Part shown: positions 3,730 to 24,043 of the stretch, one piece after another
Layout: each line of letters starts with the position of its first letter
Numbering within the stretch: the stretch's first letter is position 1
Source of the DNA: Mobilitalea sp.
GTDB taxonomy: Bacteria; Bacillota_A; Clostridia; Lachnospirales; Lachnospiraceae
DNA: 31,088 bases
Direction: 5' to 3'
NCBI GenBank assembly: GCA_029974875.1
Contig: JARKQP010000447.1
Location: forward strand, 1 to 31,088
The notes under the pieces: generated by a model
What the model saw: only the letters and a program-made list of their open reading frames with translations
Told to the model about the DNA's origin: nothing
Databases searched by the model: none
Position numbers and translations under genes: made by a program

Positions 3730-4569
3730 ATGGGTAGTATTCAAAAATTTTATGAAAAAACATGGTTTATGTGGGTTATGTTAATCTTTTTTGCTCCAAT
3801 TGGAATTTTTCTTATGTACCAATATAAGAGATTTAATCCTACCGCTCGCTTAATTCTTTCTATTTTTTTTGGATTGGTATTTATAAGTGCAATAGTATTT
3901 AGTAACACCAATAATAATGTAGAAACAAATGGGAGTGCATATGAGCAAAGTGATTCAGAACAAGGGTCAACGAGTGTACTTGGCCAAAGTACCAGTGGTA
4001 ATATCTATGACCGTAACGGAGTTCTTTTAGCTACAAATGAGCTTTCTTATTCAGTTATCATGGAGGATACCGCGATTCCTGATGATGAATATAATGACAT
4101 CATCCATAAATTGATCAAAATAATAGAAGATAACGGAGACTCCCTTTATAACGAATTTTATATCAGGCAGAATGAATCGGGTGAATTAGAGTTTACCGTG
4201 GAAGGCTCAGCCCTGACTCGATTTAAGAAGAATGCCTTTGCCGATGTTCTTGAGGATGGTAACCTGACCGAAGAACAGCTAAATGCGACCGCGCAAGATG
4301 TTTATGAGTTCCTGCGGACCGGTACCGGCAATGGCCATACCCATATGTTTAATATATCTGATAAATATTCCGTAGAAGATACGCTGAAAATCATGAGTGT
4401 CCGATACGCGTTATTCTGCAATTTTCCAAAGTATCTTCAGATTACGCTTGCGTCTAAAATAAGCGATGCCACTGTGGCAGCTATTATGGAAAGCGATGCT
4501 GATCTGAAGGGCGTTGAGATTCAACAGCAGACCAGCCGTGTTTATGAGGACACAACACCTACTCCATAA
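3730..4569 (+). CDS. Membrane protein with PBP dimerisation domain but no transpeptidase domain
   Basis: A 279-residue protein in two parts. Residues 1-60 are two membrane segments (WFMWVMLIFFAPIGIFLMYQ and LILSIFFGLVFISAIVF) of a type seen in many small clostridial membrane proteins. After a Ser/Gln linker, residues 92-275 match the dimerisation domain of class B penicillin-binding proteins (SGNIYDRNGVLLATNELSYS near the start; KYLQITLASKISDATVAAIM and GVEIQQQTSRVYED near the end). The protein stops where the catalytic transpeptidase domain would begin, so SxxK, SxN and KTG motifs are absent. AGGAGG 5 nt upstream supports the start. It may be a regulatory or decoy partner of PBP2/MrdA, or a truncated relic; the intact frame and good ribosome site favour a real gene. 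Confidence 0.72.
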   Translation: MGSIQKFYEKTWFMWVMLIFFAPIGIFLMYQYKRFNPTARLILSIFFGLVFISAIVFSNTNNNVETNGSAYEQSDSEQGSTSVLGQSTSGNIYDRNGVLLATNELSYSVIMEDTAIPDDEYNDIIHKLIKIIEDNGDSLYNEFYIRQNESGELEFTVEGSALTRFKKNAFADVLEDGNLTEEQLNATAQDVYEFLRTGTGNGHTHMFNISDKYSVEDTLKIMSVRYALFCNFPKYLQITLASKISDATVAAIMESDADLKGVEIQQQTSRVYEDTTPTP

Positions 4570-4711
4570 ACAGCTCCAACACTGACTCGGATCCTACAGC
4601 GACTTCATTAGAGAAAAGGAAATGGTAGGAGTGCTCGATACTACTTATAGTAAAGTATTTACAACTGTTATTTTTATACTTAAAATAACACTGGCTGGTA
4701 AACATTGCAAT

Positions 4712-4803
4712 TACTATTCGTTAAACTCTAATTTCGCGAGAAGGCTTGCTTCCTAGGCTTATCGCGATAATTTAAGTTTAACGAATAGTATGTAAACAGT
4801 TGC
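4712..4803. repeat. Left attachment region: 16-bp core plus long inverted repeat (candidate folded attP)
   Basis: TACTATTCGTTAAACT at 4712-4727 is repeated as an exact inverted copy at 4775-4790. Between them AATT and TCGCGA pair with TCGCGA and AATT, giving a nearly continuous hairpin with a loop near 4740-4761. The outer side of the right arm (ATGTAAACAGTTGC, 4790-4803) matches the sequence just outside the core at the other prophage end (GCAACTGT, 11235-11242) in inverted form, so the stem becomes longer in the excised circle. Confidence 0.7.
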
Positions 4804-6513: not shown

Positions 6514-6594
6514 CTACACATCCAGGATATCAAACAAAGCAAACCACAAGATACCCCATACCATACAAAGTAAGACATAAAGGATAAACTCCAT
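6514..6594 (-). CDS. Candidate 26-aa single-TM peptide
   Basis: The frame starts at the ATG overlapping the stop of the upstream Cys-rich gene (TGATG) and encodes MEFILYVLLCMVWGILWFAL followed by FDILDV. It is one membrane span with almost no flanks. GGCGGTG lies about 6 nt upstream. Tiny one-TM proteins are typical of filamentous phages (pVII/pIX-like), but this one lies in the replication operon, so the role is open. The frame is so short that chance cannot be excluded. Confidence 0.35.
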   Translation of the reverse strand: MEFILYVLLCMVWGILWFALFDILDV

Positions 6595-6776
6595 CATTTC
6601 ACCGCCTTTGCTAATTTTGTCATAGGTTCTCTTGCATAACACCCGGAAGCCACACAGGCAACGCATTCGCCTTTATAAAGGCATCCGTAATTTATCTCAC
6701 AGTACTTTCCCTTCATACACATACACCTGCCTAATTCGTCAGCATAGGCGCATTTAAAGTTACACCCTTTTTCCAT
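6594..6776 (-). CDS. Small cysteine-rich protein (60 aa, 9 Cys)
   Basis: A 60-residue protein with nine cysteines spaced C-X3-C-X8-C-X-C-X5-C-X5-C-X5-C-X2-C-X4-C and no signal peptide or membrane segment, so it probably binds zinc or another metal in the cytoplasm. Its ATG follows the stop of the preceding gene directly (TAAATG), which implies translational coupling in the rep operon. I do not recognise the family. The regular spacing resembles small phage zinc-binding proteins only in a general way. Confidence 0.6.
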   Translation of the reverse strand: MEKGCNFKCAYADELGRCMCMKGKYCEINYGCLYKGECVACVASGCYAREPMTKLAKAVK

Positions 6777-6986
6777 TTATTCGCCCTCACCTTCCAATAA
6801 CCTCAAATGACTACAACAAATATCATCAGCCACCATAATGATTCCTATATGGACTTCTTGACTTATTACCCCATGCACTTCTAATGCCATAAGATATCCC
6901 GCAATATAATGACGTATTTCAGCATAACCATATTTCCTTAACATTTTAAAATTTTCTCTTAAATACTCTCTGTCAATATCATTCAT
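6777..6986 (-). CDS. Small prophage protein of unknown function downstream of rep (69 aa)
   Basis: A 69-residue protein starting MNDIDREYLRENFKMLRKYG, with a conserved-looking YAEIRHYIAGYLMALEVHG core and an acidic end. I prefer the ATG at 6986, which overlaps the rep stop by 8 nt (ATGAATGA) and has GAGGAAAA upstream; a longer frame starting at 7079 would run far into rep and has no ribosome site. It probably depends on translation of rep. The function is unknown; its place directly after rep suggests a role in replication control. Confidence 0.6.
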   Translation of the reverse strand: MNDIDREYLRENFKMLRKYGYAEIRHYIAGYLMALEVHGVISQEVHIGIIMVADDICCSHLRLLEGEGE

Positions 6987-7581
6987 CACCGTTCTTTTCC
7001 TCGCTTTCAAATGGATTTGATTCATCATAATATGTATCCTCGATATGCACGAACCCTTCCCGGAGCCTTTTGGCTTCATCCCGCTTCATGCGGTTCAGCA
7101 TTTCGACCTCGTCATTATGTTCATCAACGATTTTGTTTATGATCGCCCCCGCCCGGCGGTAAACGTCCCAGTAACCGCATTTAGCGCAATATTTTGCGAA
7201 ATAAGTGTAAGAGATCTTGTATTCCTGTGATTCAATAAATTCAATGATTTCCGTTATGACCTCATTTTCCGTCTTGTCAGAAGAGTTAATACTAGCAGTA
7301 AGTCTTGTCTTTAAACTCCCCTCAACCTCGTCAATGCTGTACTGGTGCTTATCCTGATCATTAAGGTGTATGAGATATTCCAGCGCCCGGTCAAGGTTCC
7401 TGATCTTTTCTATGTAGTTCATTTCAATCCCAAGTTCCTTAGCAAGTGCTGAATTCCAACGCTTGTTATTGCCTACCGTTATGATTACATGCCAATGCGG
7501 TTTTTTTGCTTCCCCGTTTTCGTCAATGTCCTTATCATGCAGGATCACCGCATAGTCAAATGACCGCTTGATGCGTTCCAA
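6979..7581 (-). CDS. rep: Rep_2-family rolling-circle replication initiator, interrupted near its N-terminus
   Basis: The 200-residue open frame matches the Rep_2 (pMV158 RepB-like) HUH endonucleases: FDYAVILHDKDIDENGEAKK, then HWH (residues 29-31) as the metal-binding HUH motif, and RALEYLIHLND with a candidate catalytic Tyr69. It nicks the plus origin and starts rolling-circle replication. The frame continues upstream without a shift to an ATG at 7659 that has a strong GGAGGT site, but codon 8 is TAA (7636-7638). The missing part (DRKFALLLYPEDKTHGEAL) is the normal N-terminal strand of the family, so the expected protein is 226 residues. As it stands, expression would need read-through or a weak internal TTG at 7581. 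The matching origin lies about 300 bp upstream. Confidence 0.85.
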   Translation of the reverse strand: MERIKRSFDYAVILHDKDIDENGEAKKPHWHVIITVGNNKRWNSALAKELGIEMNYIEKIRNLDRALEYLIHLNDQDKHQYSIDEVEGSLKTRLTASINSSDKTENEVITEIIEFIESQEYKISYTYFAKYCAKCGYWDVYRRAGAIINKIVDEHNDEVEMLNRMKRDEAKRLREGFVHIEDTYYDESNPFESEEKNGDE

Positions 7582-7651
7582 TGCCTCCCCATGCGTCTTA
7601 TCCTCAGGGTAGAGCAGTAAAGCAAATTTCCGGTCTTAAAATGTTTCAATT

Positions 7652-7831
7652 TTACTCATGTTCCATTACCTCCTCAAGTCTTTTCTTGTTACCCTCATAT
7701 ATTGCATTTAGACGCTGAACAGCAGTTTCATACATTACATCCATTTCATCCATATCATCGGTTATAAACATACGGTTTATATTACCTTCCAACATATCCT
7801 TCTGAATTTTCAATTTCCTATACCAATCCAT
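7652..7831 (-). CDS. Small acidic helical protein preceding rep (59 aa)
   Basis: A 59-residue frame with an excellent AGGAGG 8 nt before its ATG, between the origin and rep. It begins MDWYRKLKIQKDMLEGNINR and ends RLEEVMEHE; it is rich in Glu, Asp and Met and predicted helical. Its end overlaps the rep start by 8 nt (ATGAGTAA), so translation of rep is probably coupled to it. This is the place occupied by the copy-control gene copG in pMV158, but the sequence does not look like a ribbon-helix-helix protein. Function unknown. Confidence 0.6.
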   Translation of the reverse strand: MDWYRKLKIQKDMLEGNINRMFITDDMDEMDVMYETAVQRLNAIYEGNKKRLEEVMEHE

Positions 7832-7856
7832 TCCGAAAACCTCCTAAAGTGTTTTT

Positions 7857-7949
7857 TGAACCATCCTGAACCAAAGCTGAACCATGTTCCATACCCCTTT
7901 GGTTCAAGGCAAACCATTGGTTTTAAAGGCTTACAAGCATTTTGAACCA
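7857..7949 (-). repeat. Iterons: TGAACCA repeats (candidate Rep binding locus)
   Basis: Three direct copies of TGAACCA at 7857-7863, 7867-7873 and 7878-7884 are spaced 10 and 11 bp, one helical turn apart. A fourth direct copy is at 7943-7949 and an inverted copy (TGGTTCA) at 7900-7906. The triple lies about 85 nt downstream of the predicted nick on the nicked strand. In pMV158 the RepB binding locus is likewise three 11-bp direct repeats some 84 bp from the nick. Confidence 0.7.
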
Positions 7950-7953
7950 TGAG

Positions 7954-7987
7954 CCAACAATCGCTTAGTCGTAGTAGCGATTGATGG
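7954..7987 (-). other. Double-strand (plus) origin hairpin with pMV158-type nick site
   Basis: CCA-A-CAATCGCT pairs with AGCGATTG-A-TGG (7954-7965 and 7976-7987), leaving a 10-nt loop at 7966-7975. On the minus strand the upper stem and loop read TACTACGAC (complement of 7968-7976), the nick sequence of pMV158-family replicons (TACTACG/AC). The cut would fall between 7970 and 7969 on the minus strand, so the displaced virion strand has the same sense as the structural genes. Confidence 0.8.
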
Positions 7988-8001
7988 TTTTAGTCCGTAA
8001 T

Positions 8002-8056
8002 TTGATAAAAATAGGAGCACCCCGGCGAGCCGGGGAACCCCTCTATTTTTTATCAA
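8002..8056. terminator. Bidirectional terminator after the Zot gene
   Basis: CCCCGG-CGAG-CCGGGG (8020-8035) is enclosed by TTGATAAAAATAG (8002-8014) and CTATTTTTTATCAA (8043-8056), giving a long stem with A and T tracts on both sides. The right arm includes the Zot stop codon. It separates the structural operon from the origin/rep region. Confidence 0.8.
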
Positions 8057-8909
8057 TATTTACGGTCACACAACCATTTTCAATCAGGTAGTCTTTATCC
8101 TGAAACCCGGAATCGGAAAGGCTATCAACAACCGCATATGTATCGTAACATTCACGCAATGCCTTATCATGCACAAAGAAATACATCCCACGGTTTTTAT
8201 ACTCGACAATATTCCCTTCACTATCCAGGATAGGCTCCCTACGCCTTACAAACGTAATACAACCAAGGATTGTAACGCATTCCCTGACCTCCGTTGCCTG
8301 GGTACGTAACGCCTTAGCAAGAAGGTGGAATGACTGGGCAGTGCCCAATATAATCCTCCTGTTTTTACGGTTCTGGGTGATTACCGTCAGCATCTCAGGA
8401 GGGAAGTTTTTGCTCTGGTTACTACTAAACCAGTTCTGTGTCTCATCCATAATGCAGATAACACCCTGTTTACCATTTTTATATTTAACCAGCTTTTTCC
8501 AATGCTTAAATTCATCATCCGCATATTTATACTTAATGTTGGATATACACTTGGATAAAGGGTATTCCAGTTGCATACGCCGGGCAAATTCTACCATTCC
8601 TATGCTCTTTCCACGTCCCTGTCTGCCGACAAATATAATACAGCCCTGGTATTTAAAAAACTCCGGGTCACGGTCTATCATATCGCTTGCATATTGCTTT
8701 GGGGCATCAATTATAAACCTCCTCAACATGCTTTTTTTCTTTAACCGGACATGCTGACCCTTCTTAAACCTTTTCCCCTGCTTCATCAAAATGAGGATGT
8801 TAATAAACACAAGCAGGAAGAAAAGCAGGAGAGCAGTGCCAACAAAATACAGGGGATATTTCAGCATACCAAAAAATCCCATTATAAGCTTTAAAAATAA
8901 GTCTAACAT
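8043..8909 (-). CDS. zot: Zot/pI-like filamentous phage assembly ATPase
   Basis: A 288-residue protein. Residues 8-42 are hydrophobic (one long or two short membrane spans), followed by a basic stretch. The ATPase domain has Walker A GRQGRGKS (95-102), Walker B GVICIMDETQNWF (149-161, with D155/E156) and a QNRKNRRIILGTAQ segment (179-192), all typical of Zot/pI proteins. In filamentous phages this inner-membrane ATPase drives extrusion of ssDNA while coat subunits assemble. Here the N-terminal span is placed as in Gram-positive inoviruses and no outer-membrane secretin is needed. GGAAGGTGG lies just upstream of the start. It is last in the structural operon, 11 nt after the pVI-like gene. Confidence 0.93.
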   Translation of the reverse strand: MLDLFLKLIMGFFGMLKYPLYFVGTALLLFFLLVFINILILMKQGKRFKKGQHVRLKKKSMLRRFIIDAPKQYASDMIDRDPEFFKYQGCIIFVGRQGRGKSIGMVEFARRMQLEYPLSKCISNIKYKYADDEFKHWKKLVKYKNGKQGVICIMDETQNWFSSNQSKNFPPEMLTVITQNRKNRRIILGTAQSFHLLAKALRTQATEVRECVTILGCITFVRRREPILDSEGNIVEYKNRGMYFFVHDKALRECYDTYAVVDSLSDSGFQDKDYLIENGCVTVNIDKK

Positions 8910-8920
8910 AAACCACCTTC

Positions 8921-9169
8921 CTATACCACCGGGAGCAGATCCCAGATCGTTTTTATTACTGTTACGGTTACCCGGAATGCCATCATGCCGACAATGAACC
9001 CTAATATGGGTGTAAGCTGTGCAAAAGGGATGATATACATAGCCATGCGGACATATTGTAACATAGGTTCAAGACTGGACATACTGACGTCAAACTGGAT
9101 GGAAGAGAGGGGGGACAGGAGAGTATTGACAATCACAAAAAGACCGTCCATCAATAATTCAGTAATCAT
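8921..9169 (-). CDS. pVI-like small membrane protein of the phage
   Basis: An 82-residue hydrophobic protein with about three membrane segments (MDGLFVIVNTLLSPL; YVRMAMYIIPFAQLTPILGF; VGMMAFRVTVTVIKTIWDLL). Its ATG overlaps the stop of the adsorption gene (ATGA) and lies just before the Zot gene. In inoviruses this slot holds the pVI-type minor coat protein (DUF2523-like in many species), which caps the virion end together with pIII. The sequence is too hydrophobic and short for a firm family call; the assignment rests mostly on position and topology. Confidence 0.7.
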   Translation of the reverse strand: MITELLMDGLFVIVNTLLSPLSSIQFDVSMSSLEPMLQYVRMAMYIIPFAQLTPILGFIVGMMAFRVTVTVIKTIWDLLPVV

Positions 9170-9909
9170 TTTTTACCTCCTTTTTGCCGGAACCCCTGGC
9201 TTATATCCATGCCCTTATCTGTAATCGCACCACTGCCGTTAATAATCTCCGGAAGACGCTTAAACACCAGGAATATGAATGCAATATAAACAAAGGCAAC
9301 AACAACCTTGTCAACAGTCGGTTTATACCTTGCATACCATGTCAGGTCAAGGACAAATGCATTACCGCCATAATTGTATTTTCCTTCCGTGTTTGCCAGG
9401 TTTACCGTAATCCTGGGAACCTGGCTCGACCCGTCCAGGAGGTATAATTTCATGTCCTTCATTAGGTCAGATACATCGTCCACGAATGCAAAATTCTTCA
9501 TCATGGAACCGAACTTTTTCCCCATTTCCTCGGCATCCGGGACAAATAACGCTTTTAATACATTCTCGGTTCCTTCCTTTATTTCATCCGCTAAGGTTGC
9601 CAGCTTGGTAGAAATTCCGGCTATTTTCCCAACTATAACACCTGCTTCATGGGCGATTTTATCTGTAATATTTACGGCTAAATCCGCAATACCACCGACA
9701 ATACGCCCGACCTCAGAAGCTATTTTATTTGTTATTGTCGCTATGCCTGATGCAATATTTGTGATAACGTTGCTAATGCCTTCCGCAATCCCAGAAAGCC
9801 AACCAAAAAGGCCAGTAATATCGGAAGGATTCCAAGGATTTGAACCGTTACCTTCGGGAGGAACTGTTGGAGTGGGATTTGGCTCAGTATTGGAGCCTTC
9901 GGTAGCGAA
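9166..9909 (-). CDS. -1 frame extension of the adsorption gene (long C-terminus)
   Basis: This frame codes for 247 residues from the T9 run to the TGA at 9166: a Pro/Thr-rich linker (NTEPNPTPTVPPEGNGSNPW), a long amphipathic helical region rich in I-A-S-G-I repeats, a FVPDAEEMGKKFGSMMKNFA motif, a soluble domain and one membrane span near the C-terminus (VVVAFVYIAFIFLVF) with a short basic tail. Between the T9 run and 9525 it has no usable start codon, and a TGA closes the frame a few codons before the run. It can therefore be made in full only as a continuation of the upstream frame after a -1 shift, giving 397 residues. A 119-residue product from the ATG at 9525 is possible but has no clear ribosome site. 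It probably anchors the adsorption protein at the virion tip. Confidence 0.72.
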   Translation of the reverse strand, partial: FATEGSNTEPNPTPTVPPEGNGSNPWNPSDITGLFGWLSGIAEGISNVITNIASGIATITNKIASEVGRIVGGIADLAVNITDKIAHEAGVIVGKIAGISTKLATLADEIKEGTENVLKALFVPDAEEMGKKFGSMMKNFAFVDDVSDLMKDMKLYLLDGSSQVPRITVNLANTEGKYNYGGNAFVLDLTWYARYKPTVDKVVVAFVYIAFIFLVFKRLPEIINGSGAITDKGMDISQGFRQKGGKK

Positions 9910-10358
9910 AAAAAAACCGTTGTCCCGTCACTTTTATACACATTATAATTTGACAATATCGGTGTCGTGCCAGTCCGTAACGGCATTGAATTTTTATTTC
10001 CTTGCACATAAGAAAATGAATCGGCACCTATAAGCGCCCGATAATAATATACATAATCTCCAATAACCGGAGTTACCATTGCTTCACCCGGCTGATCATA
10101 ATACATTTTTTGCTTACATGCATAACCATAATAATAACCATCCGTTGACTTACCAAGTACATAATATGGGGAACCTCCCATTTCGTGGCTCATGTTATTT
10201 ACTCTCTCTTTAAACGAAGCCATTGCCTGAGCATCCGTTGTAAATGCATAAGCTTTACCATAAAACAATCCACTTATAAACATACCGATCCCAAAAACAA
10301 CGATAAATACCACGAATTTATTCCGTAACGAAAGAATCCCTGCTTTTTGATTTTCCAT
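9741..10358 (-). CDS. pIII-like adsorption/minor virion protein, zero-frame product with coat-like anchor
   Basis: A 205-residue secreted membrane protein: signal peptide (hydrophobic residues 14-33, AYA cleavage motif ending near residue 38), a Tyr-rich ectodomain (residues 40-148), then from residue 150 a short tail ending in a membrane span and LRKALATLSQILHQA. The last 32 residues resemble the phage major coat protein (14 of 32 identical). At codons 148-150 the gene crosses nine consecutive T; a -1 shift there leads into a second long open frame, so this product is probably one of two. GGAAAGGA lies about 10 nt before the ATG. In the phage order this is the receptor-binding gene, after the coat terminator and before pVI. 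Confidence 0.78.
   Translation of the reverse strand: MENQKAGILSLRNKFVVFIVVFGIGMFISGLFYGKAYAFTTDAQAMASFKERVNNMSHEMGGSPYYVLGKSTDGYYYGYACKQKMYYDQPGEAMVTPVIGDYVYYYRALIGADSFSYVQGNKNSMPLRTGTTPILSNYNVYKSDGTTVFFSLPKAPILSQIPLQQFLPKVTVQILGILPILLAFLVGFLGLRKALATLSQILHQA
9908..9916 (-). other. Slippery run of nine T joining two frames of the adsorption gene
   Basis: On the minus strand the sequence is ACGG-T9-CGCTACC. Reading before it is in the signal-peptide frame. One extra T (or a -1 ribosomal step on T-TTT-TTT) moves reading into the 247-codon frame. The run satisfies the X-XXY-YYZ pattern and is also long enough for transcriptional slippage. A deletion mutation or a sequencing error in a homopolymer would look the same. 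Confidence 0.6.
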
Positions 10359-10388
10359 AATTTAATCATCCTTTCCATAAAAATTGGA

Positions 10389-10406
10389 GTGGGGATAATT
10401 CCCCAC
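10389..10406 (-). terminator. Terminator after the major coat gene
   Basis: GTGGGG-ATAATT-CCCCAC (10389-10406), read on the minus strand, follows the coat stop by 16 nt; an AATTTTTA stretch lies 4-11 nt after it. A leaky terminator directly after the coat gene is the normal way filamentous phages make far more coat than adsorption protein. Confidence 0.65.
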
Positions 10407-10422
10407 CCCAAGAGGTTGAAAG

Positions 10423-10572
10423 TTACGCACTGTGTAATACACCCTGTACGAATGCAATACCCTTGCGCAATGCAATAAAGCCAACCATTACCGGGATTAC
10501 GACAGGAAGCAGACCAATAATCTCTTCCAGAACCCCATTAAGCATAGTTCCGGTAATTACAGTATCTAACAT
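10423..10572 (-). CDS. Major coat protein (pVIII-like) of the filamentous phage
   Basis: A 49-residue protein: an N-terminal amphipathic part (MLDTVITGTMLNGVLEEIIG), one membrane span (LLPVVIPVMVGFIA) and a basic C-terminal helix (LRKGIAFVQGVLHSA). This size and layout are those of a filamentous-phage major coat subunit, whose basic C-terminus faces the DNA. AGGAGG lies 8 nt upstream. An in-frame ATG 8 codons earlier (MAEKEEKC) is possible but has no ribosome site. A terminator follows directly. There is no obvious signal peptide, which is acceptable for coats inserted by their own hydrophobic span. Confidence 0.82.
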   Translation of the reverse strand: MLDTVITGTMLNGVLEEIIGLLPVVIPVMVGFIALRKGIAFVQGVLHSA

Positions 10573-10602
10573 ACATTTTTCCTCCTTTTCTGCCATGCTA
10601 GG

Positions 10603-10752
10603 CTATTTAAAAAACATGTTGAAAAACTTATATGCATAGTGCAACAGAATGACGATCACAAAGAAGATCAGAAGAGAAGTAATCCCCTGTAATATCGTAT
10701 TGGTTGCACCTATTGCCATTTGAATATCTGTCAGTTGTTGGGTATAATCCAT
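10603..10752 (-). CDS. Small one-TM phage protein, probable minor coat or second coat protein
   Basis: A 49-residue protein: polar N-terminus (MDYTQQLTDIQMAIGATNTI), one membrane span (TSLLIFFVIVILLHYAY) and a basic/aromatic end (KFFNMFFK). It lies directly upstream of the major coat gene, on the same strand, in the position of the pVII/pIX minor proteins. AAGGCGGTG lies about 5 nt before the ATG. Its short leader region resembles nothing else in the operon. The exact virion role cannot be told from sequence. Confidence 0.65.
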   Translation of the reverse strand: MDYTQQLTDIQMAIGATNTILQGITSLLIFFVIVILLHYAYKFFNMFFK

Positions 10753-10871
10753 GTATACACCGCCTTTTCGGTCAGATTTTTAAAGATCACTAGGATCAAA
10801 ACCATTGGCACCTAAGGCAGGATTCCCAAAGTACGTGAATCCCACCCCAAGCTATTATGTCAACTAATAAT

Positions 10872-10914
10872 GTTTGTCAAGAAAAATAGGAGACCACGAT
10901 TTTTCTTGACAAAC
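10872..10914. repeat. Perfect 16-bp inverted repeat between the ssDNA-binding and coat genes
   Basis: GTTTGTCAAGAAAAAT (10872-10887) and its exact complement (10899-10914) enclose an 11-nt loop. On the minus strand it directly follows the ssDNA-binding gene, so it may be its terminator. The arms also carry TTGACA on each strand; on the minus strand TTGACA (complement of 10875-10880) with TAATAG 17 bp on could be the coat promoter. A packaging hairpin is a third option. Confidence 0.6.
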
Positions 10915-10924
10915 GCCAGGTCAA

Positions 10925-11173
10925 CTACTGGACTTTAACGACTTTGTCAATATTCACGTAGGACCGGTCAGAGCCGATACTAATACGGAGGTCACAGCTA
11001 ACTTTGTCCATACGCTTGATACCGTCAAACAGCTTCAACGTATCATCATTGATGAATACTTTCACAACGTCAACACCCTGCATGAGGGCAACATTGTGGT
11101 ATACCTTTGTAGTGTCTTTTTTACCCTGGATTGTCTCAATCCCGATAAATTCAAATTGTCCGTTCAGTTTCAT
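10925..11173 (-). CDS. Probable phage ssDNA-binding protein (gpV-like)
   Basis: An 82-residue protein of beta-rich, OB-fold-like pattern (MKLNGQFEFIGIETIQGKKD, then KVYHNVALMQGVDVVKVFIN and RMDKVSCDLRISIGSDRSYV). It is the first gene of the structural operon. Filamentous phages place a small ssDNA-binding protein (gpV) here; it coats new viral strands before packaging. The ATG at 11173 follows GAGG by 5 nt; longer in-frame starts (MAESEEK, or a further ATG at 11224) lack a ribosome site. There is no clear sequence signature for the family, so the call rests on length, fold pattern and position. Confidence 0.6.
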   Translation of the reverse strand: MKLNGQFEFIGIETIQGKKDTTKVYHNVALMQGVDVVKVFINDDTLKLFDGIKRMDKVSCDLRISIGSDRSYVNIDKVVKVQ

Positions 11174-11243
11174 TTTTTCCTCGCTTTCTGCCATGTTAGG
11201 CATAAAAAACAGTTGCTTAACCATCCTGTGGTCAGCAACTGTA

Positions 11244-11275
11244 TACTATTCGTTAAACTTAGGTTTTGCGAATAG
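11244..11275. repeat. Right attachment site: 16-bp core and imperfect palindrome
   Basis: TACTATTCGTTAAACT at 11244-11259 is identical and in the same orientation as the copy at 4712-4727. With the following bases it forms an imperfect palindrome (ACTATTCG ... CGAATAGT, with AAAC/GTTT inside), a shape expected of a tyrosine-recombinase site. The joined outer flanks (4711 to 11260) would be the empty chromosomal site. Confidence 0.65.
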
Positions 11276-11484
11276 TTATGTTTGCTTTGATATAAATATT
11301 CATGACTACCAGTTTGCCCATGCCCATTTGTCGAGGTACACAAATCTGGTAAATATCGTACATCTACTATTCATGGTGCTCTATCCAGTTAAAAGAGTGA
11401 CACAAAAATGGTAACATAGTGTCTTTTTGCAGCTATTATAGTACTAAATAGCAACTGTGGTTTTTGCCGGTAATTCATAGGTTT

Positions 11485-20820: not shown

Positions 20821-21036
20821 ATGAGTAACTTACTTTCAGCTTTATCCTGTGGTTGTGATTCTAAAGAAAGCGGTATGAACCCTATGCTTATGATCATCTT
20901 ATTACTCTGCTTATGCGGTGGTGATAACGGTATACTTGGCGGCTGCGGCTGCAATGATTCCTGTGGCTGTAATAACGGACTGGATGGCATTTTGCCGCTG
21001 ATACTGATCCTTTCCATGTGCGGTGGCTCCTGCTAA
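20821..21036 (+). CDS. Small Cys/Gly-rich hydrophobic protein (71 aa)
   Basis: A 71-residue protein with two hydrophobic stretches (MNPMLMIILLLCLCGG and GILPLILILSMCGGSC) separated by a Cys/Gly/Asn-rich core (GGCGCNDSCGCNNG). It has eleven cysteines and ends in Cys. GGAGG lies 7 nt before the ATG and a very strong terminator follows, so it is a real single-gene unit. The composition resembles small sporulation or spore-coat peptides of clostridia, but I cannot name a family. Disulfide or metal cross-linking is possible. Confidence 0.7.
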   Translation: MSNLLSALSCGCDSKESGMNPMLMIILLLCLCGGDNGILGGCGCNDSCGCNNGLDGILPLILILSMCGGSC

Positions 21037-23704: not shown

Positions 23705-24043
23705 AAAAAAAGCCCTAAACGTCATTTAAAACGTTTAGGGCGAATATATCATCCGTGTTACCACCTAAATTCAGAGACACCTCTCTGCACTCTGCCAGTA
23801 CAATCATACTGCCTCCCTGTAACGTGGGAATACGTTGAAGCCTACTAGGATTTTATTATGCATCCGTTCGGTCCAAAGCTCCAAGACTGCTTCCATACAA
23901 ACTCCATAAAGATTCGCACCAACCATCTTCTCTCTGAAATATCCTTCATATGTACTACTTCTTTTCATAGCCTTTTCTTTTTTTATATAATGAAGGCTTA
24001 AGGCCTGTAGCAATCATGCTGACATTGCTGACCTTCATTAATT
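23705..24043 (-). promoter_or_regulatory. T-box leader (tRNA-Ala type, apparent GCA specifier) of the aminotransferase gene
   Basis: On the minus strand the leader holds the stem I motif GATGGTTGGTGCGAATC (23911-23927), a specifier region GGAAGCAGTC (23885-23894, with GCA at 23888-23890), the T-box AGGTGGTAACACGG (23753-23766), and the terminator GCCCTAAACG/CGTTTAGGGC (23712-23741) with a run of T (23705-23711). The TGGT bulge would pair with ACCA, matching the A discriminator of tRNA-Ala. Uncharged tRNA would stabilise the antiterminator. The specifier choice is by eye. Confidence 0.9.

Follow-up and report, generated by a model that had tools for sequence, protein, structure and literature searches.

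Several described systems obtain two proteins from one gene by a change of reading frame, and they are the closest counterparts of the adsorption gene considered here, which lies in an inovirus-like prophage of Mobilitalea sp. (assembly GCA_029974875.1, contig JARKQP010000447.1, positions 1 to 31,088; this whole stretch of 31,088 nucleotides is called the window). Shigella mxiE reportedly carries a run of nine T, and its useful product is said to be the fusion. In genes of the mxiE type overlapping frames are likewise joined, by an extra nucleotide added in transcription at a U run, as described in the portion of Baranov et al. drawn on here (PMC1088944); in the present gene, however, each of the two C-termini has the look of a functional end and the overlapping stretch encodes two proteins, and the genes are not homologous. 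The same portion describes dnaX, a further likeness; of its homologues in Thermus and E. coli, one makes two products through slippage in transcription, the other through ribosomal frameshifting (PMC1088944). Unlike the present gene, dnaX is a bacterial replication gene, and its shifted product stops at nearby stop codons and does not enter a second conserved domain (PMC5009743, the part of it used here). That part also covers the tail chaperones of tailed phages and the coat extensions of T3 and Lactobacillus phage A2, where frameshifting gives two C-termini, and it names no filamentous phage gene, its sole mention of such phages being display libraries (PMC5009743). The tailed phages have double-stranded DNA and their proteins are unrelated to those treated here.

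In M13, pIII has the order signal, N-domain, flexible linker and C-terminal membrane tail. The long form encoded by the window's gene has this order, and the short form ends in a helix that resembles pVIII and has a basic end; unlike the M13 proteins, they had neither pIII nor pVIII families among the matches listed in profile searches. To our knowledge, a pIII-type N-domain fused to a coat-type helix is known solely from engineered phage display. Among the open-licence papers listed on frameshifting or slippage in inoviruses and filamentous phages, no title or abstract opening reports recoding, and the main text of a large inovirus survey (PMC6813254) contains none of the words frameshift, slippage, adsorption, pIII or overlapping.

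One gene with two C-termini

The adsorption gene is on the minus strand and comprises the following features.

9741..10358, minus strand: frame-0 open reading frame (ORF) of the adsorption gene, 205 amino acids, with a signal-like N-terminus (judged by eye, without a signal-peptide program), N-domain and coat-like C-terminal anchor
9744..9905, minus strand: coat-protein-like anchor in frame 0, 54 residues, 29.4 bits against an independent coat hidden Markov model (HMM); predicted helix at residues 161-204
9908..9916, minus strand: slippery run of nine T (T9; A9 on the plus strand), codons GTT TTT TTT TCG, the run beginning at the second codon base
9166..9927, minus strand: −1 open frame, 246 codons past the run
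9166..9907, minus strand: −1 tail of the long product past the run, with linker, helical region, FVPD...WYxxxKP region and membrane tail
9741..9907, minus strand: dual-coding stretch, the anchor in frame 0 and a Pro/Gly/Asn linker with the start of the helical region in frame −1
9253..9306, minus strand: hydrophobic pIII-like C-terminal segment of the long product, VVVAFVYIAFIFLVFKRL (position counted by hand)

From the sequences we consider it very probable that this single gene gives two adsorption proteins by a programmed −1 frame change, brought about by slippage of RNA polymerase on the T9. Translation in the default frame 0 would yield a secreted N-domain fused to a coat-like helix. Where the polymerase slips on the run, a share of the mRNAs would enter the −1 frame and encode the same N-domain, now joined by a flexible linker to a helical stalk and a membrane tail that resembles that of pIII. 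The first-pass annotation had already proposed programmed slippage to a short and a long adsorption protein, and its coordinates, lengths and frame relation prove right; the proposal is now supported by the same layout in 11 other divergent loci. Its remark that the −1 frame has no start of its own for almost 400 nucleotides agrees with a first ATG at codon 127, about 380 nucleotides in, and the coat-like membrane anchor that it saw at the end of the 205-residue frame proves homologous to the coat protein of the phage itself.

A survey for frames that overlap ahead of Zot covered 62 Zot-bearing loci, namely the window and 61 distinct others (44 from a first scan and 17 from a second), which came from IMG/VR contigs by way of alignments of Zot, the tail and the 82-amino-acid membrane protein encoded between adsorption gene and Zot, and from phage and plasmid records. 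The set includes near-copies (L043/L044, L058-L060) and some loci without a recognisable adsorption gene (for example L041, L056 and L070). Direct protein queries of genome contigs and viral contigs gave no relative, and a scan with the L019 Zot returned only L019 itself. A −1 dual layout with a hydrophobic or coat-like frame-0 end is present in 12 of the 62 loci (the window, L001, L003, L013, L018, L019, L024, L025, L026, L030, L033 and L036; hereafter dual loci), and in all twelve the third frame is closed by a stop within 2-11 codons. Nine of the named Zot relatives from phages and plasmids (L004-L012) contain no −1 coat-anchored pair, and several of them show +1 overlaps of neighbouring genes. 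Two loci, L035 and L039, hold a two-gene version, with a separate coat-anchored ORF just ahead of the long adsorption gene; they were initially counted as single-frame, and their layout emerged from the coat HMM search of forward frames upstream of Zot in 35 loci (E 0.00046 and 0.0001, respectively). Both L035 products have a signal-like start, and the likely GTG of the long gene is 14 nucleotides before the stop codon of the short one; the short ORF of L039 has no clear signal.

Past the run, frame 0 of the window ends in ...ILGILPILLAFLVGFLGLRKALATLSQILHQA and the separate coat gene (10423-10596) in ...IIGLLPVVIPVMVGFIALRKGIAFVQGVLHSA, and the two ends align. The coat HMM was built iteratively from short ORFs (35-150 amino acids) of the loci; its final set of 34 coat-like ORFs includes a few weak members, L048 and L061 being the weakest, and no adsorption-gene anchor. 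In 2000 synonymous-codon shuffles that preserve the amino acids of the −1 frame, none equalled the 29.4 bits of the window anchor (best shuffle 11.6), and frame 0 was left open in just 170. The anchor scored above all 2000 shuffles in ten of the twelve dual loci, narrowly so in L025 (11.3 vs 10.5 bits). Searches with the frame-0 product found P0002 and P0011-P0016 (P0011 is the L013 product and P0012 the L003 product), and all seven C-termini match the coat HMM (full-sequence E ≤ 1.2e-5 in a search of ten proteins). The N-domains of P0012, P0013 and P0014 are near-identical and the coat-like anchor of P0012 is clearly unlike those of the other two, which suggests that this anchor evolves fast or is exchanged. 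The L003 phage holds a tandem pair of coat genes (4357-4740).

When frame 0 was fixed in the reverse test, the number of shuffles, out of 2000, that kept the −1 frame open ranged from 1 for L019 to 1623 for the window. This test says little for the window, where the −1 frame draws its support from its own protein family, which comprises eight protein-database relatives at E ≤ 1e-3. P0006 and P0010 combine the tail with a signal-like N-terminus in a single frame. The other six start inside the tail (P0009 near the junction), several of them from short contigs that may account for some of the internal starts; that six of eight begin within the tail or at the junction suggests that gene callers split these adsorption genes. 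A tblastn search of phage and plasmid records with the tail gave no match.

Shift signals in the related loci

A run of at least nine A or T at the frame junction, kept across homologues, is what programmed transcriptional slippage would call for, and it is found in nine of the twelve dual loci, eight with T9 and one, L033, with T10; L003, L030 and L026 have none. Run length among homologues, which the first-pass annotation had named as a check, is 9 or 10 in every locus that has a run at the junction. All nine preserve the same frame relation, including L033, where the phase of the T10 is shifted. Counted from 0, the T9 starts at codon phase 1 in all but two of its eight loci, the exceptions being L018 (phase 0) and L019 (phase 2), and the peptides across the run differ (VFFS or LFFS, FFF, SFFL), with the nucleotide run constant. 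Because the length is kept while the codon phase varies, slippage of RNA polymerase is indicated. A ribosomal slip site needs six or seven T, usually together with a stimulator. Since the runs here have nine or more although a ribosomal site would need fewer, action of the T9 by transcriptional slippage is the favoured reading. In a large proportion of bacterial genomes, A/T runs come under negative selection at a length of nine (Baranov et al., PMC1088944, in the portion drawn on).

The placement of the runs is more informative than their number. On the Zot-coding strand the nine T-run loci contain 11 runs of at least nine T, nine of them at the junction. A plain Markov model expects about 4.5 and reaches up to 12 in 200 simulations, so that the count by itself is not significant, whereas the placement and the rarity elsewhere are. 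The 53 other loci hold four such runs in 344,788 nucleotides (in the adsorption-gene tail of L028, in the 82-amino-acid-type gene of L038, after Zot in L045, and outside ORFs of 40 amino acids in L010), none of them at a dual junction.

The three dual loci without a T run have a different kind of signal, which consists of a heptamer, a spacer of 5-6 nucleotides and a perfect stem of 7 base pairs. The stems are GCTCCAC/GTGGAGC in L003 and L030 and GCCCTCG/CGAGGGC in L026, and they stand behind G_GTT_TTT or A_AAT_TTT. When the best perfect stem 4-9 nucleotides downstream was compared with 500 dinucleotide shuffles, 0, 0 and 2 shuffles were as good for L003, L030 and L026, respectively. By contrast, eight of the nine T-run loci have no comparable stem (85 to 497 of 500 shuffles as good); in the window the best perfect stem has 4 base pairs and 199 of 500 shuffles equal it, so that no ribosomal-frameshift stem is seen there among perfect stems, a search that does not extend to pseudoknots. 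RNA folding z-scores alone did not separate the two groups, whereas the spaced-stem test did; the latter was picked after the folds had been viewed, which makes its result a strong pattern and not a blind prediction. L003 (near 5215) and L030 (near 1255) belong to separate Zot clades and are identical over a stretch around GGTTTTTCAGGGAGCTCCACAGG, which may be a mobile ribosomal-frameshift module. The VFQGA peptide at this site is kept in P0012-P0014 and P0016.

The Zot tree has 35 rows, 12 of them dual, 21 without a dual frame and two unclear. Dual and single-frame loci are intermixed on it, and over 33 of the rows the state switches 6 times between dual and non-dual. The type of shift differs within supported groups, as in L030 with L033 (100/100), L018 with L026 (95/84), and L003 with the window, L001, L013 and the single-frame L014 (99/99); L019 is on a very long branch and its placement is unsure. 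The tree thus points to an exchange of the slip mechanism between relatives. Related phages would make the same protein pair through ribosomal −1 frameshifting at heptamer, spacer and stem, and two of them through separate genes. At the level of sequence, selection acts on both frames, the layout has been kept and the signal for the shift has been exchanged.

Weighing the alternatives

A number of observations stand against the proposed slippage or narrow it. Most relatives lack the dual frame, and many have a single-frame long gene, so that the short form is not essential to all. The first-pass annotation had held that homologues with one frame and no T run would refute it, and here the outcome is mixed and on balance in its favour: eleven other loci are dual, eight with T9 or T10, but single-frame adsorption ORFs do occur in L014, L027 and others. 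The G_GTT_TTT of L003 and L030 is an imperfect X XXY YYZ heptamer. The close relative P0006 encodes its N-domain and tail in a single frame and has FFF near the junction, and its lineage could have another run length or no run. In L028 a T9 (5109) is found in the tail of the adsorption gene with a −1 continuation and no coat-like end, which may be an assembly error, a variable run or another slip. The frame-0 ORF of L018 is cut by the contig start. Two anchors are weak against shuffles, L019 (equalled in 84 of 2000) and L026 (32 of 2000), and neither matches the coat HMM at E ≤ 0.5. The hydrophobic peak alone is unremarkable, being equalled in 8 of 2000 shuffles for the window, 1019 for L003 and 645 for L019; since shuffles so often match the observed hydrophobicity, it is the coat match that counts. 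The predicted structure of the 205-residue ORF is poor apart from the C-terminal helix (mean predicted local distance difference test score 52.9), and a model of this quality does not establish a receptor-binding fold for the N-domain.

The same two products would arise if the T9 made the ribosome slip (on U_UUU_UUU) and not RNA polymerase. This version is rather unlikely, although it has some ground: every T9 also holds a T_TTT_TTT heptamer, which each of the phases leaves in frame, ribosomal-type signals do occur in three relatives, and L018 combines its T9 with a 7-base-pair stem (9 of 500 shuffles as good), so that ribosomal shifting is possible at that locus. On the other hand, a run of 9 or 10 in all nine loci whatever the phase, and the lack of a comparable stem at the right spacing in eight of them, agree better with the polymerase. 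Runs of nine T are also mutable in DNA, and the population could consist of short-form and long-form genomes that differ in run length. The T10 of L033, the in-frame long form P0006 and the T9 elsewhere in the L028 gene are compatible with such phase variation, yet the nine junction runs of at least nine T all keep the frame relation, the T10 compensating by its phase, none of the four such runs in the 53 other loci is at a junction with the long form in frame, and the stem-type sites of L003, L030 and L026 are unable to vary by run length. Phase variation is accordingly considered unlikely, clearly more so than ribosomal slipping.

Even less probable is that the window encodes two separate proteins, frame 0 being read as it stands and the −1 frame having an internal start of its own. 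Two genes are indeed present in L035 and L039, but in 11 dual loci the −1 frame lacks an ATG for 27 to 203 codons past the slip, in L013 it has none, and its first GTG or TTG codons are at 32-155; in addition, the single-frame relatives P0006, P0010, L014 and L023 fuse the tail to a signal-like N-terminus. From the positions of ATG, GTG and TTG, a separate start for the tail was judged unlikely. Homopolymers are prone to error, and a sequencing or assembly error or a decayed gene would also place two frames side by side, but eleven other loci on different contigs have the layout in common and the end of frame 0 is conserved and homologous to the coat, which leaves this explanation hardly any probability. 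Ten T in the real genome, the other refutation that the first-pass annotation had named, is not credible, as separately assembled loci share both run and layout. Sequencing error, gene decay and a chance frame were effectively excluded by the shared layout in relatives and the shuffle tests.

Possible roles of the products and the prophage

What the two forms do is a question apart from how they are made. We infer that the shift takes place in cells, that the T9 acts in transcription, and that the short form is packed among the coat subunits. The short product would be exported and held by its coat-type helix with the basic end, where it would be accessible to the Zot-driven assembly machine; among the coat subunits it would display its N-domain on the virion, and the long form would cap the tip. 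By analogy with pVIII display, the short product is probably a receptor-binding domain built into the virion, and the long form, by analogy with M13, would be a tip-bound receptor protein. The full scheme of natural phage display, in which the short product is a minor coat subunit with a receptor-binding domain along or near the end of the filament, slippage sets its ratio to the tip-anchored long form and the T run tunes the presentation of receptor binders, is tentative. A role of the short product as a membrane-held immunity or regulatory protein, not part of the virion, has about the same modest chance and is compatible with the shift. Its signal-like start and single hydrophobic anchor would suit such a protein; its retained coat features speak for the virion. 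All 14 anchors have 2-6 basic residues among their last 20, where an acidic residue occurs just once, in L035; judged by eye, the hydrophobic stretch is followed by K or R. The fit of the anchors to the coat of their own phage beats permutation (0 of 20000; 13 of 14 anchors, as the L018 coat was not found), a result confounded by kinship, the own coat ranking first for just 3 of 13.

If the account of the two adsorption proteins is true, filamentous phages join the viruses with programmed recoding, their attachment protein becomes a pair with two anchors, and the stoichiometry of receptor binding in this group of inoviruses becomes testable. The locus would also provide a compact natural case in which one gene with two products swaps among polymerase slippage, ribosomal frameshifting and gene splitting.

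By its rolling-circle Rep, coat and Zot genes the region reads as an integrated inovirus-like prophage, with a cluster at about 6594-11224 in inovirus-like order (coat, adsorption gene, 82-amino-acid membrane protein, Zot/pI ATPase, Rep). The genes and signals around the adsorption gene are as follows.

10423..10596, minus strand: major coat gene, matched by the coat HMM and by no Pfam family; most likely start 10572 (MLDTV...), with AGGAGG ahead of the start codon
10384..10411, minus strand: terminator-like hairpin between coat and adsorption gene, 12 pairs (7 G-C) followed by T5, identified solely by a consensus match (5 in the region vs 3.6 expected)
8921..9169, minus strand: 82-amino-acid membrane protein encoded between the adsorption and Zot genes, a position that it keeps in all four relatives aligned
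8043..8909, minus strand: Zot/pI-like assembly ATPase (PF05707 Zot, 23.4 bits, cut-off 20.3), 66% identical to the L001 Zot
6979..7581, minus strand: rolling-circle replication protein (Rep_OBD, PF01719, E 4.5e-18)

The adsorption gene resembles a pIII-type gene in its place between coat and Zot, signal-like start, linker and hydrophobic C-terminal tail. No pIII family was among the Pfam or PHROG matches, and searches of PDB sequences were of no help, a profile search there giving 30 weak matches (E 0.14-0.95), none from a phage. A direct repeat of 43 nucleotides (4712-4754 and 11244-11286; 72% identical, with TACTATTCGTTAAAC in common) encloses about 6.5 kb that include the phage cluster, and its two copies are possible attachment sites. 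Elsewhere in the window are a T-box leader (23733-23977, minus strand, 130 bits) and a short Cys/Gly-rich ORF of 71 amino acids with hydrophobic stretches (20821-21036, plus strand).
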